Shown here: piece by piece, positions 8,399 to 15,107 of the stretch | Numbering within the stretch: the first letter of the stretch is position 1 | How the letters are laid out: every line of letters starts with the position of its first letter | Source: a virus | DNA: 32,647 bases | Direction: 5' to 3' (one strand) | IMG/VR virus record: IMGVR_UViG_3300027759_003860 | Coordinates: 1-32,647 of that record | The notes under the pieces: model-generated | Told to the model about the DNA's origin: nothing | Seen by the model: only the letters and a program-made list of their open reading frames with translations | Databases searched by the model: none | Program-made: the position numbers and the translations under genes

Positions 8399-8797
8399 TT
8401 AGGCGTTAGAGTCTGCTTGTCGTTTTTTACCGATGAGGAAAAGGATGTGCTCGTGCAGGGCCTTCAGGTCGGAGACGAAGACGAGCACGATGGGCAGGCT
8501 GAGCGGGTAGGGGTTCTGCACGGCCTCGGTGCCGAGAGCCTCGAAGACGTGATCCTTGAAGGCGTGCAGGTCGGGGCGCAGCACGAGCCCGGCGGCGCGG
8601 GCGGGGCGGAAGGGCTGGGGTTGTTTGCCCTCGTTGGGGCTTTGCTCGCCTAACGTGAAGTCACGCACGCCCTGCGGCGGGATGTAGGCGGCACCGAGCT
8701 GGGGGAAGAGCCAGCGCATGTATTCGCGCAGCATGGACTGCATCAGCAGGCCAGTGCTGGCGGTCCATTCAAAAGGCTGGGTCTTGCGCGCGGCCAT
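8399..8797 (-). CDS. Hypothetical tail-region protein
   Basis: The product has 132 residues, with a basic C-terminus and a hydrophobic stretch (about 100-122) that reads more like a buried helix and strand than a membrane segment. No family is recognised. It starts 3 nt after the preceding stop (TAA then CC then ATG), so it is co-translated with the tail protein upstream. Its place after the tape measure suggests a tail-tip component. Confidence 0.6.
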   Translation of the reverse strand: MAARKTQPFEWTASTGLLMQSMLREYMRWLFPQLGAAYIPPQGVRDFTLGEQSPNEGKQPQPFRPARAAGLVLRPDLHAFKDHVFEALGTEAVQNPYPLSLPIVLVFVSDLKALHEHILFLIGKKRQADSNA

Positions 8798-9687: not shown

Positions 9688-11415
9688 TTAGGCGGCACCG
9701 GTGAGGGTGGTGAGGATCTGCTGGATGACCTGCAAAGCGGTCTGCTGGGTGGTGGTGTCACCACTGGCCCCAGGCTTGTCAGCACTGGCTGCGGCGGCAC
9801 GGGCGGCGAGGGGATTACCTGCGCCACGGTTTGGATCGGCTCCGTAGAGGTGCTCCTGGCGCTGAAAGGCGCCACCCTGACGGGCGCGGCTGAAGCCCAT
9901 GATCTTGGACTCACCTTCGGGCTTTGCTGTGTCGCCAGGGGTGGTCTGTCCGCGTTGGTCGGCCTTCTCCTGCAGGGATTGCATTTTAGTGGCAGCGGCG
10001 GTGGCTTGGTCCTTGCCGAGCCCGGTCTGCGCCATGATCTGGGCGGTGCGCTGGCGAATGGCTTCCTCCCTTTCGAGAGCTTTCACGAGATTGGTCTGGC
10101 CATTGGCTTTGGCCGCCAGCAGGGCCATCTCACCGGCGAGATCGCGTGAGGCTGCGAGCTGCTCCTGCTTCTCTTTTTCCATGGTTATGGTCTGCTCCCA
10201 CCAGGCTTCTTTCTCGGCGGCTTTGGCCTTGGCTTCGGCCTCGCTGTTGCCTGCGTCTTTTTCACGCATGCCACCGGAGATGGCATTGAGCTGCTCCTGC
10301 ATGGCGAGGATCTGCTGGAGTCGCTCGAAAGTCTTGTCGACACTGCCGGTGCCTGCTTTGAGCTGGGCAGCGGCGAAGGCCTCCATGCCCTGCACGGTGG
10401 CATCAAAGAACTGGCCACCAGAGGCGCGCATCTCGTCGATCTTCTGCTTCTGCATCTCGGTGATGGCGGCGAGCTTTTGCTCGGGGGCCAGGCGAGAGAG
10501 TGCCTGCTGGGTGATGGCTTCCTGGATGGTTTTGACGCGGCCCAGGGCGGTCTCTTTTTCTTTGGCGGCGGCGGCGCTGGTCTTGGCGTCTTCTTTTTCC
10601 TGCGCAGAGGCGGCGGCGGCGACTCGGTTGGCCTCCTGCGCGGAGGCGGCACCGGCGCGGTCTTTTTCACTTTGGACAGCAGCGGCATCTGCACCGTCGG
10701 GGGTGCTAAAAGCATCGGCGAATGAGGCACCGCCGAGCATGGCCCCGACACCCTGACCGAGACCGATCAGGGCACCGACTCCGGCCTTGGTGCGCGAGAT
10801 GAATCCATCGACCTTATCATTGAGCGCGGCCATGCTTTGAACGGCTGAATCTGCCACCACGGGCGCATTGGCAAACATGCCTTCGAGGCCTTCTTTGCCT
10901 GCGGCGAAAAGTGGGATCAAATCGCCTGCGGACTTGCCCATGAGGTCGAGGATGTCGTTGTAGCCGGTGCCGGACTGGCGTGCCTGGCTAAACGCACCGC
11001 TGAGGGCCACGAGCTTTTCATCGAGCGGCATGGCCGCGAGTGACTCGGCGGTTAGACCGAAATGGGCGAGAGCCTCGGCGGCCTTGGTGTTCTCGACATC
11101 GCCCAGGGCTTTTTCCAGCTTCAGGGCCGAGCCAGCGACGGAGTCCATGCTGGTGCCAGCCTGCTCAGCGGCAAAGGTGACGCGCTGGATTGTGTCGGTG
11201 CTTTCACCGAGCTTAAGAGCCGTGTCGGCGAGGTCGTCAAAGTGACCCAAGGTGCCTTTAATGGCGCCACCGAGAGCGCCGAGGCCGAGCATGCCGCTGA
11301 GGTTAGGCATGGCCTTTGCGGCCTTGGCTCCGAAGCCACTGAGCTTGGTTTCGAGCTGAGTGAGACCGCGATCGACCGCGCTGGCATTAAAGCCGAATTC
11401 AATGATGGCCGACAT
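9688..11415 (-). CDS. Tail tape measure protein
   Basis: The product has 575 residues, mostly alpha-helical. Residues 1-130 read like the start of phage tape measures (FGFNASAVDRGLTQLETKL, then a Gly/Ala-rich hydrophobic patch at about 38-53). About 195-240 holds another hydrophobic Gly-rich segment, and 245-480 is a long Ala/Glu/Lys/Gln-rich coiled-coil region. Such proteins set tail length and may help DNA pass the membrane. At about 1.5 A per helical residue the tail would be near 86 nm. It lies downstream of the G/GT chaperone genes as in lambda, though two small genes intervene. Confidence 0.85.
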   Translation of the reverse strand: MSAIIEFGFNASAVDRGLTQLETKLSGFGAKAAKAMPNLSGMLGLGALGGAIKGTLGHFDDLADTALKLGESTDTIQRVTFAAEQAGTSMDSVAGSALKLEKALGDVENTKAAEALAHFGLTAESLAAMPLDEKLVALSGAFSQARQSGTGYNDILDLMGKSAGDLIPLFAAGKEGLEGMFANAPVVADSAVQSMAALNDKVDGFISRTKAGVGALIGLGQGVGAMLGGASFADAFSTPDGADAAAVQSEKDRAGAASAQEANRVAAAASAQEKEDAKTSAAAAKEKETALGRVKTIQEAITQQALSRLAPEQKLAAITEMQKQKIDEMRASGGQFFDATVQGMEAFAAAQLKAGTGSVDKTFERLQQILAMQEQLNAISGGMREKDAGNSEAEAKAKAAEKEAWWEQTITMEKEKQEQLAASRDLAGEMALLAAKANGQTNLVKALEREEAIRQRTAQIMAQTGLGKDQATAAATKMQSLQEKADQRGQTTPGDTAKPEGESKIMGFSRARQGGAFQRQEHLYGADPNRGAGNPLAARAAAASADKPGASGDTTTQQTALQVIQQILTTLTGAA

Positions 11416-11484: not shown

Positions 11485-11865
11485 CTATATGGAAAGTTGT
11501 TCTGGATAATCACTGTTAGCCAGCCTGAGCAGCACGTCCGCGTGGCAGGCCGTTCCCGGCTTGCACCAGCACGCGAGATTCTTGCCGCGCAGTTCTTTGA
11601 GGTTGTCGAGCATCCACTGTTTTCGGTCTGCGATTCCAGCCGTCACGCCTTCGACCGTGAGCCACGTTCTGAACGCGCCGACCGCGAGGGTTTGTGACCG
11701 CTCCGGCGTGACCTTGAATGGGTTTCCCCACTTCGATGGTTGCGAGACGACCACGGTATTCGGCGGCAGTTTCGCGCCAGCTTTCCGCGAGAGTTGCACG
11801 CGATGCGGGCTGGCTAACCACGTGCTGCTGCCAACAGGGTGGGGCGATTGAGTCTCAGTGTTCAT
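11485..11865 (-). CDS. DUF4326 family protein
   Basis: The product has 126 residues from the ATG at 11865. Conserved DUF4326 features are visible: PNTVVVSQPSKWGNPF (about 35-50) and, near the C-terminus, GKNLACWCKPGTACHADVLL (about 94-113) with C99, C101, C107, H108 and D110. The family is common in phages; no function is established that I can cite, though the Cys/His cluster looks catalytic or metal-binding. It sits between the tail chaperone and the tape measure, where lambda has nothing, so it is likely an inserted accessory gene. Local strand composition is less G-biased than its neighbours. Confidence 0.8.
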   Translation of the reverse strand: MNTETQSPHPVGSSTWLASPHRVQLSRKAGAKLPPNTVVVSQPSKWGNPFKVTPERSQTLAVGAFRTWLTVEGVTAGIADRKQWMLDNLKELRGKNLACWCKPGTACHADVLLRLANSDYPEQLSI

Positions 11866-11916
11866 CGTTGCCTTTCTTCGCCCCACCCTGCGGCAGAGCT
11901 TGGTCGTTATGCTGAA

Positions 11917-12172: not shown

Positions 12173-12406
12173 CTACCCTCTTCTCGACTTGAAGAAATCG
12201 GTGATGCGGGACCACCAGCGGCCGCGCTTGCTGAGGGCTGGGTCTGGCCAGATGAGGGGCTCGCCATCGGCGGTGCGGCCTGCGTGGATGAGCTCGCGGC
12301 CGGTGGCGAGGGGGACATGATGGAGGATCTGATCATAATTAAAAAGGCCGGGGGCGGCCCTCGATAGGAGCACCACATAGGATGCCTCAGTCGAGGGCAG
12401 GGCTAG
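12173..12406 (-). CDS. T-like part of the GT tail assembly chaperone (made by -1 frameshift)
   Basis: This frame is open from the slippery site at 12412-12406 to a TAG at 12173-12175, adding 77 residues to G for a 227-residue fusion. It has only a GTG (12376) as a possible independent start and no Shine-Dalgarno sequence, so frameshifting is the better explanation. The part is Trp- and Arg-rich near its end (WPDPALSKRGRWWSRITDFF). In lambda the T portion of gpGT recruits the tail tube protein while G holds the tape measure; the gene order here agrees. Confidence 0.8.
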   Translation of the reverse strand, partial: LALPSTEASYVVLLSRAAPGLFNYDQILHHVPLATGRELIHAGRTADGEPLIWPDPALSKRGRWWSRITDFFKSRRG

Positions 12407-12412
12407 TTTCCC
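12357..12412 (-). other. Programmed -1 ribosomal frameshift signal
   Basis: On the minus strand the last codons of G read CTG GGA AAC TAG. The bases G GGA AAC (12412-12406) form a perfect X XXY YYZ slippery heptamer in the zero frame, one codon before the stop; lambda uses GGGAAAG at the same place. After a 7-nt spacer come GCCCTCGA (12398-12391) and TCGAGGGC (12364-12357), a perfect 8-bp stem with a 26-nt loop that can pair further (AGGCA with TGCTCCT). Slippage by -1 enters the T frame at CTA (12406). Confidence 0.85.
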
Positions 12413-12855
12413 AGGTCGTCCCCCTTTAGGTCGGAGGGTCGGGAGATGGCGCGTGTGGAGTCGGCGGTGCTGAGGATCTGCAGGGCGATCTCGATGGCGG
12501 GCATCTGGTCGGCGCGGGTCAGCTGCTCATCAGCCCATTGCTCGATCTGATCCATAAGCAGGGCGGCATTCCCGCGCATGGGGTTCCAATCCTCCGGCGT
12601 GTGCAGGCAGAGCCAGAGCAGGATGATGGCCTCCTGCAAAAAGGACTCGGGGTGCTTTCTAACCAGATGGATGGGCAGGGAGTCATTGAGGGCGCGGAGG
12701 CGGAAGTAGAGGGTCTCACGGCGGATGCTGAAGGGCTGCAGCGGCGTGCCCTGCCAGGCGTGGGTGGTGAGGACGGCGGTCTGGCGCTCGGCGGCTGCGG
12801 CGTCGGCGAGCTGCTGATCGATGACGTCGTCTTCAAAGGTGGCTTCGGTGTTCAT
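12403..12855 (-). CDS. Tail assembly chaperone G-like protein
   Basis: The product has 150 residues, acidic at both ends with a helical middle (RETLYFRLRALND, then ALQIL). It has no single diagnostic motif, but its place before the tape measure, its acidic helical nature and the frameshift signal at its very end identify it as the G-type chaperone. Ribosomes that do not slip stop at TAG (12403-12405); those that slip make GT. Its ATG directly follows GCCTAAC with no Shine-Dalgarno sequence. Confidence 0.8.
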   Translation of the reverse strand: MNTEATFEDDVIDQQLADAAAAERQTAVLTTHAWQGTPLQPFSIRRETLYFRLRALNDSLPIHLVRKHPESFLQEAIILLWLCLHTPEDWNPMRGNAALLMDQIEQWADEQLTRADQMPAIEIALQILSTADSTRAISRPSDLKGDDLGN

Positions 12856-12875: not shown

Positions 12876-13634
12876 TTAGGCGATGCGGAAGTGGCTGCGG
12901 ACCTGATCGAGCAGGTGGCCGCTGGGGTTCTCAGGGAGCAAGGCGCGGCGGTTGCTGTGAGGGGATTTGAGCAGGACTTCACGGGCCTGCTTTTTGCAGT
13001 GGGCGAGCAGGCAAGCATAACTGTAGGCGCCCTGGTAGGCGGAGCAGAGCGGGTGCTGCGGCTGGGTGGTCTCTAGCACCAGGGCGGTCTGACCAGGCAC
13101 GGCGCGGCGGATGAGATCGAGGGTCTGCCACTCGGGAGCGGCACGCATGCCATGGGCTGGCAGGCAGTAGAAGCGGCGGCCCTGCTCACCCTGCATGTCG
13201 ATGACGGGGATGCCGATGACGCCGAGCGCGGCGGCGAGTGGCAGGTCGGTGGTGCGGGGGCCGCGCTGGAGTGAGAGTGTGCTGGGCTCGGTGCCGGGCT
13301 CATACTGCCAGGCACCGAGGGCGCAGGAGACGAGGCAGAGCTTGTCTCCGGTGGCCTGAAACTTGAGCAGGGCGCTGTAGTTATGCGCGGCGCGCAGGGC
13401 CTGCAGGAAGGGGTGCAGCGGGTCACTGGCGAGCAAGCTGCCTGTGCCGTAGGCGTTGCGCAGGCCATCGCGGTCTAACTGTGACCACTGCGAGGTGGGG
13501 CTGATGCTGAAGCGCTGCTTCAGGGCTTGGCGCAGCTCGATGATCTCGGTCTGCTGGGAGCGGACGATGAAGCCGCAGGCGGCGAAGGCAGCGGCGAGCG
13601 GGGTGGACGCGGTGGACCAGGTAAAGGCTTGCAT
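12876..13634 (-). CDS. Hypothetical tail-module protein
   Basis: The product has 252 residues from the ATG at 13634; the frame is open to 13694 but that extension is intergenic. It looks globular, with a hydrophobic N-terminus (Ala-rich, 10-25), a central GVIGIPVIDMQG segment and several Cys and His. I recognise no family. It is placed between the tail tube candidate and the G chaperone. Its stop is GCCTAAC. Confidence 0.55.
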   Translation of the reverse strand: MQAFTWSTASTPLAAAFAACGFIVRSQQTEIIELRQALKQRFSISPTSQWSQLDRDGLRNAYGTGSLLASDPLHPFLQALRAAHNYSALLKFQATGDKLCLVSCALGAWQYEPGTEPSTLSLQRGPRTTDLPLAAALGVIGIPVIDMQGEQGRRFYCLPAHGMRAAPEWQTLDLIRRAVPGQTALVLETTQPQHPLCSAYQGAYSYACLLAHCKKQAREVLLKSPHSNRRALLPENPSGHLLDQVRSHFRIA

Positions 13635-13711
13635 GGGCAAGGATGGATGAGGACTGAGTGCAGTGCCGGGAGAGTCCCGACTGAGCCGCTGCACCGGCTA
13701 AGTCTAACCGA

Positions 13712-14122
13712 TTACGCGACCGCGATGAACGGGCGATAAGTGAAGGGCACGCTGATCGTGGTGCCTTCTCCATCCGCATGGTCACGGGTCGGGTTGCCGA
13801 CAATGGTGACATTGTCGGAGTCGATCTCGAAGCCGTGGATGTCATCGCCATCTGCCACATTGAGCAGAGTGGTGGCGGTGCCTGGGTGGATGTTCCCAAG
13901 GCCGTGCGCCTGCCCAAGGGCATTGCGTGAGGGGCGGCCTTTGATTTCACCTTCAAGGCGGGGATCTTCCCAGCGCTCATATTCGACGGCGCGCTGATCA
14001 CCTTTGTGGGTGACTTGGTCGCGCATGGGTTTCAGGCTGACATCGGTGACCATGAGCCCGGTCTCGTCCTTGAGTCCGTAGCTGGGCTTGACGCCGTGTT
14101 CGATGAGGGGTTCAAGGGGCAT
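13712..14122 (-). CDS. Putative tail tube (major tail) protein
   Basis: The product has 136 residues from the ATG at 14122. It is strand-rich with a polar surface (EIKGRPS, then FEIDSDNVTIVGN and TISVPFTYRPF), which suits a tail tube fold. Position also fits: after the U-like terminator and before the G chaperone, where lambda has V. Similarity is not strong enough to name a family, and it is shorter than lambda V, lacking any extra Ig domain. Confidence 0.45.
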   Translation of the reverse strand: MPLEPLIEHGVKPSYGLKDETGLMVTDVSLKPMRDQVTHKGDQRAVEYERWEDPRLEGEIKGRPSRNALGQAHGLGNIHPGTATTLLNVADGDDIHGFEIDSDNVTIVGNPTRDHADGEGTTISVPFTYRPFIAVA

Positions 14123-14160
14123 GAGAGAGAAGTGGCGTGGGGGTGGTCTAACTGAAAGGA

Positions 14161-14634
14161 TTACTGAGCAGCGGCCGTGCCGTGCAGGACGCGAGGCTTG
14201 AGCACGCACTTGGTGGTGGACTTGGCCACGAGGATCAGGAGGGGATACTCACCGACGCTGATGTCTGCACTCGGGGCGATGCCGCCAGCGGTGCCGCTGA
14301 GGACATAGACGGGGGCGGTCATGCTGAGTGTGGCGCCGAGAGTCAGATCGGGATCTTCAGTGACGACATTGAGCGGCTGGCCGGAGCTTGCGTTATGGGC
14401 GGCGACACCGACGATGCCGATGAGAGTGGAGTCGTCCGCATCAGCGAGCACATATTTGCCCGTGCTGGCGGATGTGACGACGACCTGACCTGCGGTGATC
14501 GTGGCACCGGCGATGCCAGTGAGGTATTTAGCCTTTGTGCTGGGGACAAAGTTGGCGGCGGTGATGCTCAAATCAGCGGCGAAGCCGGAGATGCAAGCGA
14601 CGAAGATGAAGAGGAAGGCGAGGATGTTTTTCAT
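14161..14634 (-). CDS. Decoration-like (DUF2190-type) protein with Sec signal peptide
   Basis: The product has 157 residues from the ATG at 14634. Residues 1-20 are a convincing Sec signal peptide: K2, a hydrophobic core LAFLFIFVACI, and a cleavage region SGFAA. The mature part (AGQVVVTSASTGKYVLADAD, then IGIVGVAA and NASSGQPLNVV) follows the pattern of small capsid decoration proteins. A signal peptide on a protein inside the head-tail gene block is odd. It may be exported during infection or lysogeny, or the decoration fold may be reused for a surface role. An alternative start at 14661 would only lengthen the N-terminus. Confidence 0.6.
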   Translation of the reverse strand: MKNILAFLFIFVACISGFAADLSITAANFVPSTKAKYLTGIAGATITAGQVVVTSASTGKYVLADADDSTLIGIVGVAAHNASSGQPLNVVTEDPDLTLGATLSMTAPVYVLSGTAGGIAPSADISVGEYPLLILVAKSTTKCVLKPRVLHGTAAAQ

Positions 14635-14657
14635 GGGGCGGTGATGAGTGGTGGATG

Positions 14658-15107
14658 TCAAAGCGCGAGCACTTGCACGCCGACCTGCAGCGCGGCGAAG
14701 AGGGTGCTGGTGGCGGCCTGCTCGTCACGTTTCACATCATCCGGCGTGGGGTGAGCGATGAAGTGCAGAGTCCAGCCGGTGCGCAGGGTGATGGCGGCGG
14801 TGGCGATGTAATCGTAGAGGGCGGGCTCATCAGCGAGCAGGCTGTTGATGGCCTTCAGCGCGGAGTCGGCGGCGAGCTGCGCGGCGGTGGCGGCGGGCTC
14901 GGGCGCGACATTGACGCTGACGATGATGATGCATGTGCGGAGGCGTGAGCCAGTGCGCTCGTCAGCGCGCACGACGATGCCAGGGGTGATGAGGGTTGTG
15001 CCATCATCCTGGCGGGTGATCGGCCAGGCGGGGACGCCTGCTGCAGTGGCGGCAGCGGTGCCGAGGTAGCCTTGGATAATGGTGGCGAGCTGGGTGGTGA
15101 GGGTCAT
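14658..15107 (-). CDS. U-like tail terminator protein
   Basis: The product has 149 residues. Its pattern of helix, strand, helix and strand with a final AHPTPDDVKRDEQAA segment resembles the minor tail proteins that close the tail tube end. Position between the Z-like gene and the tail tube candidate is that of lambda U. Its TGA stop is part of a TTTGACA motif that stands 27 nt before the next start. Confidence 0.55.
   Translation of the reverse strand: MTLTTQLATIIQGYLGTAAATAAGVPAWPITRQDDGTTLITPGIVVRADERTGSRLRTCIIIVSVNVAPEPAATAAQLAADSALKAINSLLADEPALYDYIATAAITLRTGWTLHFIAHPTPDDVKRDEQAATSTLFAALQVGVQVLAL

Follow-up and report, generated by a model that had tools for sequence, protein, structure and literature searches.

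The locus at the end of the putative tail chaperone gene G raises the question of how ribosomes reach T, a downstream frame that has no start of its own. A sequence-only reading had placed a −1 frameshift signal at this joint. The window, a virus record of 32,647 bp analysed at its full length, carries its structural genes on the minus strand, in the order terminase, portal, head protease, major head protein, small head/tail genes, G, T and tape measure. The three genes that define the locus are as follows.

12403..12855, minus strand: G gene, an open reading frame of 150 aa encoding the zero-frame product, with the tape measure gene downstream
12173..12406, minus strand: T region in the −1 frame, 77 codons from CTA to the stop TAG at 12175..12173
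9688..11415, minus strand: tape measure protein gene, matching PHROG families for tail length tape measure (best E 1.8e-13)

The order G, T, tape measure is common to the window and to the relatives L005 and L011. The tape measure gene directly follows T in L005 (within about 330 nt), and two small ORFs intervene in the window. A DUF4326 protein (PF14216, E 7.4e-25) is encoded between T and the tape measure gene of the window, at 11485-11886 on the minus strand; it was not detected in L005. Upstream of G, the search for a major tail protein gave nothing, as ORFs 13712-14209 and 12876-13694 match no family. The ORF at 14161-14661 (minus strand) adjoins the head genes, has a signal-peptide-like start MKNILAFLFIFVACISGFA and shows a weak likeness to phage cement/decoration families (PF09956, below cut-off). 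An Rfam search of the window returned no family.

The joint is very probably a lambda-type −1 programmed ribosomal frameshift that yields the tail chaperones G and G-T. The predicted signal consists of the following elements.

12420..12425, minus strand: AGGGGG, Shine-Dalgarno-like, a possible upstream stimulator ending 7 nt before the heptamer
12406..12412, minus strand: slippery heptamer G_GGA_AAC in the G frame, kept in all homologous joints of the lineage
12403..12405, minus strand: UAG, the zero-frame stop of G, directly after the heptamer
12399..12405, minus strand: 7-nt spacer TAGCCCT, with a spacing of 6–7 nt conserved
12391..12398, minus strand: outer stem, 5′ arm GCCCTCGA, from folding and covarying
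12381..12386, minus strand: inner stem, 5′ arm GGCATC, from folding
12369..12374, minus strand: inner stem, 3′ arm GGTGCT, from folding, pairing with 12386..12381
12357..12364, minus strand: outer stem, 3′ arm TCGAGGGC, from folding, pairing with 12398..12391

The 3′ end of G reads CTG GGA AAC TAG in frame, and the slippery heptamer had been read with the right letters, strand and coordinates (12412..12406, minus strand). GGGAAAC is in phase for tandem tRNA slippage because the −1 frame is open through the joint. In-frame heptamers of the form XXXAAAN or XXXTTTN are rare: the window's genes hold 4 across 8,630 codon positions, and this is the sole one at a gene end. In 25 of the 27 non-redundant joints described below, T opens with CTA, a codon that accounts for 4 of 234 Leu codons elsewhere in T; the search pattern left the CTA-determining base free. 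The obvious gain from this rare Leu codon would be the UAG that it creates in the G frame. A stop one step behind the slip site had been proposed, and this holds for the window and for 25/27 joints but is not universal: in L011, L115, L196 and L209 the G stop falls several codons later.

Close relatives are few. L003/L005 match the window at 81% in G (tblastn match) and 91% in T, and both heptamer and stop are kept. No relative was obtained by tblastn of G against public phages. A G-profile scan of genome contigs was empty, and a wider set was therefore sought via the capsid protein. L011 and L086, found in this way, share about 30–44% identity over the aligned stretches of G or T and retain GGGAAAC with the −1 joint. 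L179 was found by a G-profile scan without any pattern; here LAQP replaces LALP, and GGGAAAC is present. The set of 27 non-redundant joints was mostly gathered by the pattern of heptamer plus LALP and is thus heptamer-conditioned, so that a scan of host-family genomes makes the fair test. This unconditioned scan, with the G profile in 68 genomes from the family of Verrucomicrobiaceae MAG G001, matched 14 places in 11 of the genomes. GGGAAAC with T in the −1 frame is present in all 11 of the intact G-T joints. Among the non-intact places, L208 has G without T, and in the prophage G404:C3 the heptamer is gone. In G454, T lies behind another gene and looks like a remnant. The GGGAAAC joints found without conditioning comprise L003, L011, L086, L179 and the 11 host-family joints. 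Judged by the sequences of these relatives, which show an unchanged heptamer, the shift site is under selection.

The 7-nt spacer and the perfect 8-bp stem downstream of it had been given with correct letters and positions. The 26-nt loop of this outer stem holds the inner stem, and the whole element is therefore a two-tier hairpin; the stem at 12398..12391/12364..12357 is present as described, but the element is larger and more variable than a single stem. In the window it folds with −25.2 kcal/mol, and 0/200 dinucleotide shuffles are as stable. Of 5,000 synonymous recodings of T made with the phage's own codon usage, 0.02% produced an unbroken stem of 8 bp or more at a spacing of 5–9 nt. An outer and an inner stem starting 6–7 nt after the heptamer are found in 27/27 joints, in a few of which pairing can be extended toward the heptamer. 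In the nearest relative, L003/L005, the outer stem contains a T.C mismatch and a G.U pair, and the inner stem is longer. The relatives conserve the heptamer and a covarying hairpin; the eight perfect pairs themselves are not conserved. A terminator-like hairpin with a T run lies inside T at 12343-12362 (minus strand) and overlaps the 3′ arm of the frameshift hairpin; judged by eye, it is not kept in relatives.

Covariation was assessed on 13 ungapped sequences that share one register, with shuffles that ignore relatedness. Both sides change at 9 of 18 pairs. Double-change cells number 25 against 14.0 expected, and 0/500 shuffles reach either the cell count or the covariation score; registers slid by 1–3 give a lower score. 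Across lineages the 3′ partner is found at three different places, while the 5′ arm stays 6–7 nt after the heptamer or extends toward it. The outer stem is GCCCTCGA/TCGAGGGC in the window, GCCTGTG/CACAGGC in L187, GCCCGTCT/AGACGGGC in L189 and CTTGCCACCCG/CGGGTGGCAGG in L092. The spacing, rather than a particular stem sequence, appears to be conserved. RNAalifold retains only the basal five outer pairs in the 13-sequence alignment because the inner register varies, and per-sequence folds with counts of named structures were used in place of its consensus. A stable stem-loop 5–9 nt past the heptamer with compensatory change is what would be expected of a hairpin stimulator, and these joints show one.

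It is unlikely that the hairpin simply reflects GC-rich coding (the LP...RA residues) and has no role in slippage. In favour of that reading, the first four outer pairs, GCCC/GGGC, are invariant in the 13 sequences and encode conserved residues. Neither lambda (z −1.4) nor HCTV-1 (z 0.1) shows a hairpin of this kind in the same structure test, so frameshifting in a G/T pair needs none. However, recoding that preserves the protein gives weaker folds in 27/27 joints, with a mean z of −3.2 compared with +0.1 for control T stretches. The both-side changes and the register shifts at fixed spacing likewise speak against that reading.

The T region evidently evolves as a protein from the first codon after the slip. 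The −1 frame reads LALPSTEAS...KSRRG and past the joint continues LALPSTEASYVVLLSRAAPG...; its predicted length of 77 open codons is borne out, ending at TAG 12175..12173. Comparison of the window with L003 in the T frame gives 8/3/23 differences at codon positions 1/2/3. LALP, right after the heptamer, is the only invariant stretch among 16 T proteins, for most of which it belonged to the search pattern. There is only a slim chance that T is a separate gene with its own start, or is translated by reinitiation after the G stop, leaving the heptamer incidental. The window does have GTG at T codons 11 and 12, preceded by GAGG, and relatives with CCCAAAC have an ATG near the G stop. Such a start is not conserved, as 4/27 joints lack any start codon within T codons 1–26, and LALP, the most conserved part of T, precedes it. 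The heptamer is moreover invariant in joints that were found without using it. A conserved start of T combined with a non-conserved heptamer, named beforehand as the outcome that would speak against frameshifting, was looked for in the relatives and not found.

Transcriptional slippage by RNA polymerase is known in some bacterial genes with long homopolymer runs, and it could in principle make the fusion at the heptamer. We consider it highly improbable here: the runs are just GGG and AAA, the codon phase exactly fits tandem tRNA slippage, and the hairpin lies at ribosome-entry distance. That G-T reflects a frameshift mutation, or an assembly error, of a single contig can practically be dismissed, since the same G-T joint occurs in dozens of independent contigs and MAGs.

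Ribosomal frameshifting at GGGAAAC, the preferred reading, may have a further component upstream. The AGGGGG stretch has a predicted pairing energy with the anti-Shine-Dalgarno tail of −9.1 kcal/mol. At the corresponding place, the pairing energy is in the best tenth of the own gene in 12 of 19 evaluable homologous joints. This statistical signal suggests a dnaX-like upstream stimulator.

Other heptamers occur at −1 G/T joints of capsid relatives and T-profile matches across the order, namely GGGAAAA, CCCAAAC, AAAAAAC, GGGAAAG, AAAAAAG or AAATTTT. Excess downstream structure is the usual case with AAC-type heptamers (mean z −2.6, 36 joints), weaker with AAG (−0.8, 10 joints) and absent with TTT (−0.2, 9 joints), in a comparison uncorrected for relatedness whose P values are overstated because the joints are related to each other. 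The link between AAC and hairpin is not a law, since HCTV-1, also with GGGAAAC, gives z 0.1 and lambda gives −1.4. One candidate explanation for AAC was that hosts with two lysine tRNAs (UUU, CUU) make AAG a poor slip codon. G001, G404 and G407 match both lysine tRNAs by pattern, and the G404 and G407 loci hold both by ARAGORN. The idea fails as a simple rule because the GGGAAAG-prophage genomes G606, G552, G672 and G604 also match the CUU form. In L078, two in-frame slippery heptamers, GGGAAAA and AAAAAAG, overlap within GGGAAAAAAG (8596-8605) where G ends, and little structure lies downstream. Capsid relatives with an unrelated T (L059, L063, L072, L076, L081, L083-L085 and L089) all have AAATTTT at the −1 joint; a conserved [YF]-[QKE] stretch comes next, and there is no hairpin.

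The prophage without the heptamer has a different arrangement. G404:C3, a 779-kb contig, carries one G gene and then a second G copy, 31% identical, that is fused in frame to T (L231/L228, G404:C3:768013-769039): G is duplicated, the second copy is in frame with T and the slippery heptamer is lost. Judged from this layout, G404:C3 could supply G and G-T from two genes, which is the expected outcome if both products are needed. In L225, L229 and L230, longer ORFs of 215–226 aa lack the heptamer and carry a G-like part and then, in frame with it, a T domain; these are possibly fused G-T proteins.

The identity of G and T was approached by sequence and by structure. Neither G nor T had a significant match in Pfam or PHROG. 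For G, an AlphaFold2 model built from 12 sequences has a pLDDT of 78.5. In a VIA comparison with 97 PDB chains, its best match is the HK97 tail assembly chaperone 2ob9 (Z 3.0, 87 residues), and its second match in BFVD is the N15 tail assembly protein GT (E 0.15, probability 0.80); both are weak and each is below the usual significance. Foldseek of G against the PDB gave no significant match, and T against BFVD no informative match. Because both weak structure matches name tail chaperones and a tape measure gene lies downstream, G is a likely, though not proven, tail assembly chaperone. Deep conservation with lambda, as proposed in the sequence-only reading, holds for the arrangement and not for detectable sequence, since G and T match neither lambda G/T nor any Pfam or PHROG family.

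The probable PVC host named there is backed by the relatives. Two capsid relatives sit in Verrucomicrobiaceae MAGs on phage-sized contigs of 34–35 kb, and G is present in 11/68 genomes of that family compared with 1/388 sampled across the phylum. Two joints lie on contigs of about 500 and 198 kb, as expected of prophages. A host in Verrucomicrobiota (Verrucomicrobiaceae) is therefore supported by genome context.

We infer slippage and its efficiency from the signal, and translation would proceed as follows. Most ribosomes would terminate at the UAG that immediately follows GGGAAAC, giving the G protein of 150 aa. A minority would be slowed by the two-tier hairpin starting 7 nt downstream, possibly aided by the Shine-Dalgarno-like AGGGGG, and would slip back one base, with the tRNAs on GGA and AAC re-pairing on GGG and AAA. 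Slipped ribosomes would translate 77 further codons, giving a G-T fusion of 227 aa. If the lambda model carries over, G and G-T may act as chaperones in loading tail tube protein on the tape measure protein. Sites of the AAC type proved less shift-prone in E. coli than those of the AAG type (A_AAA_AAC compared with A_AAA_AAG; PMC5009743), and predicted slippage at GGGAAAC consequently rests on the hairpin and the host.

G-T frameshifting is described as widely conserved among long-tailed phages (PMC5009743), and its mechanism, position and near-identical heptamer are already known from lambda. Lambda G/GT uses GGGAAAG in the same gene pair, as the sequence-only reading stated (PMC5009743, PMC7618472). 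The window shares with it an in-frame X_XXY_YYZ near the G end, a −1 T without a conserved start, the order G before T before tape measure, and the predicted pair of G and G-T fusion. In contrast to lambda, its second codon is AAC and not AAG, its stop is directly after the heptamer, its G and T have no detectable similarity to known families, and it has a strong covarying hairpin at 7-nt spacing, which lambda lacks in the same test. The haloarchaeal virus HCTV-1 frameshifts its tail chaperone at an identical GGGAAAC in the same gene pair (PMC5009743), but its host is archaeal and it shows no excess downstream structure. The layout of a Shine-Dalgarno-like stretch, slippery heptamer and downstream hairpin resembles E. 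coli dnaX (PMC3711429), although dnaX is a cellular DNA polymerase gene with A_AAA_AAG, and the Shine-Dalgarno-like part of the window is only statistical. HK97 gp13, the best VIA match, likewise gains an extension by −1 frameshifting, and in HK97 a 'moron' gene (gp15) is inserted between chaperone and tape measure, where the window too has an extra gene; the fold match is weak and there is no sequence similarity.

The addition to this picture is that an AAC-type site, in a phage group not characterised before, is accompanied by a covarying hairpin and possibly by a Shine-Dalgarno-like element. A search of the open-access literature yielded no account of covarying hairpins at the shift sites of tail chaperones. 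We tentatively suggest, with somewhat more doubt than confidence, that the verrucomicrobial joints form a distinct G/GT class, in which an AAC-type shift codon is combined with a strong, repeatedly re-invented hairpin at fixed spacing, and in which the frameshift can be lost only if separate genes supply both products, as in G404:C3. Ordinary gene calling in these phages would probably overlook T and G-T, as T lacks its own start. For lambda, G/GT frameshifting is textbook knowledge, but little work has been done on its stimulators; here a putative structural stimulator is backed by covariation in an uncultured phage group. The natural variants, with their different heptamers, shifted stem partners and the separate G and fused G-T genes of G404:C3, make the need for a hairpin at tail chaperone shift sites testable.
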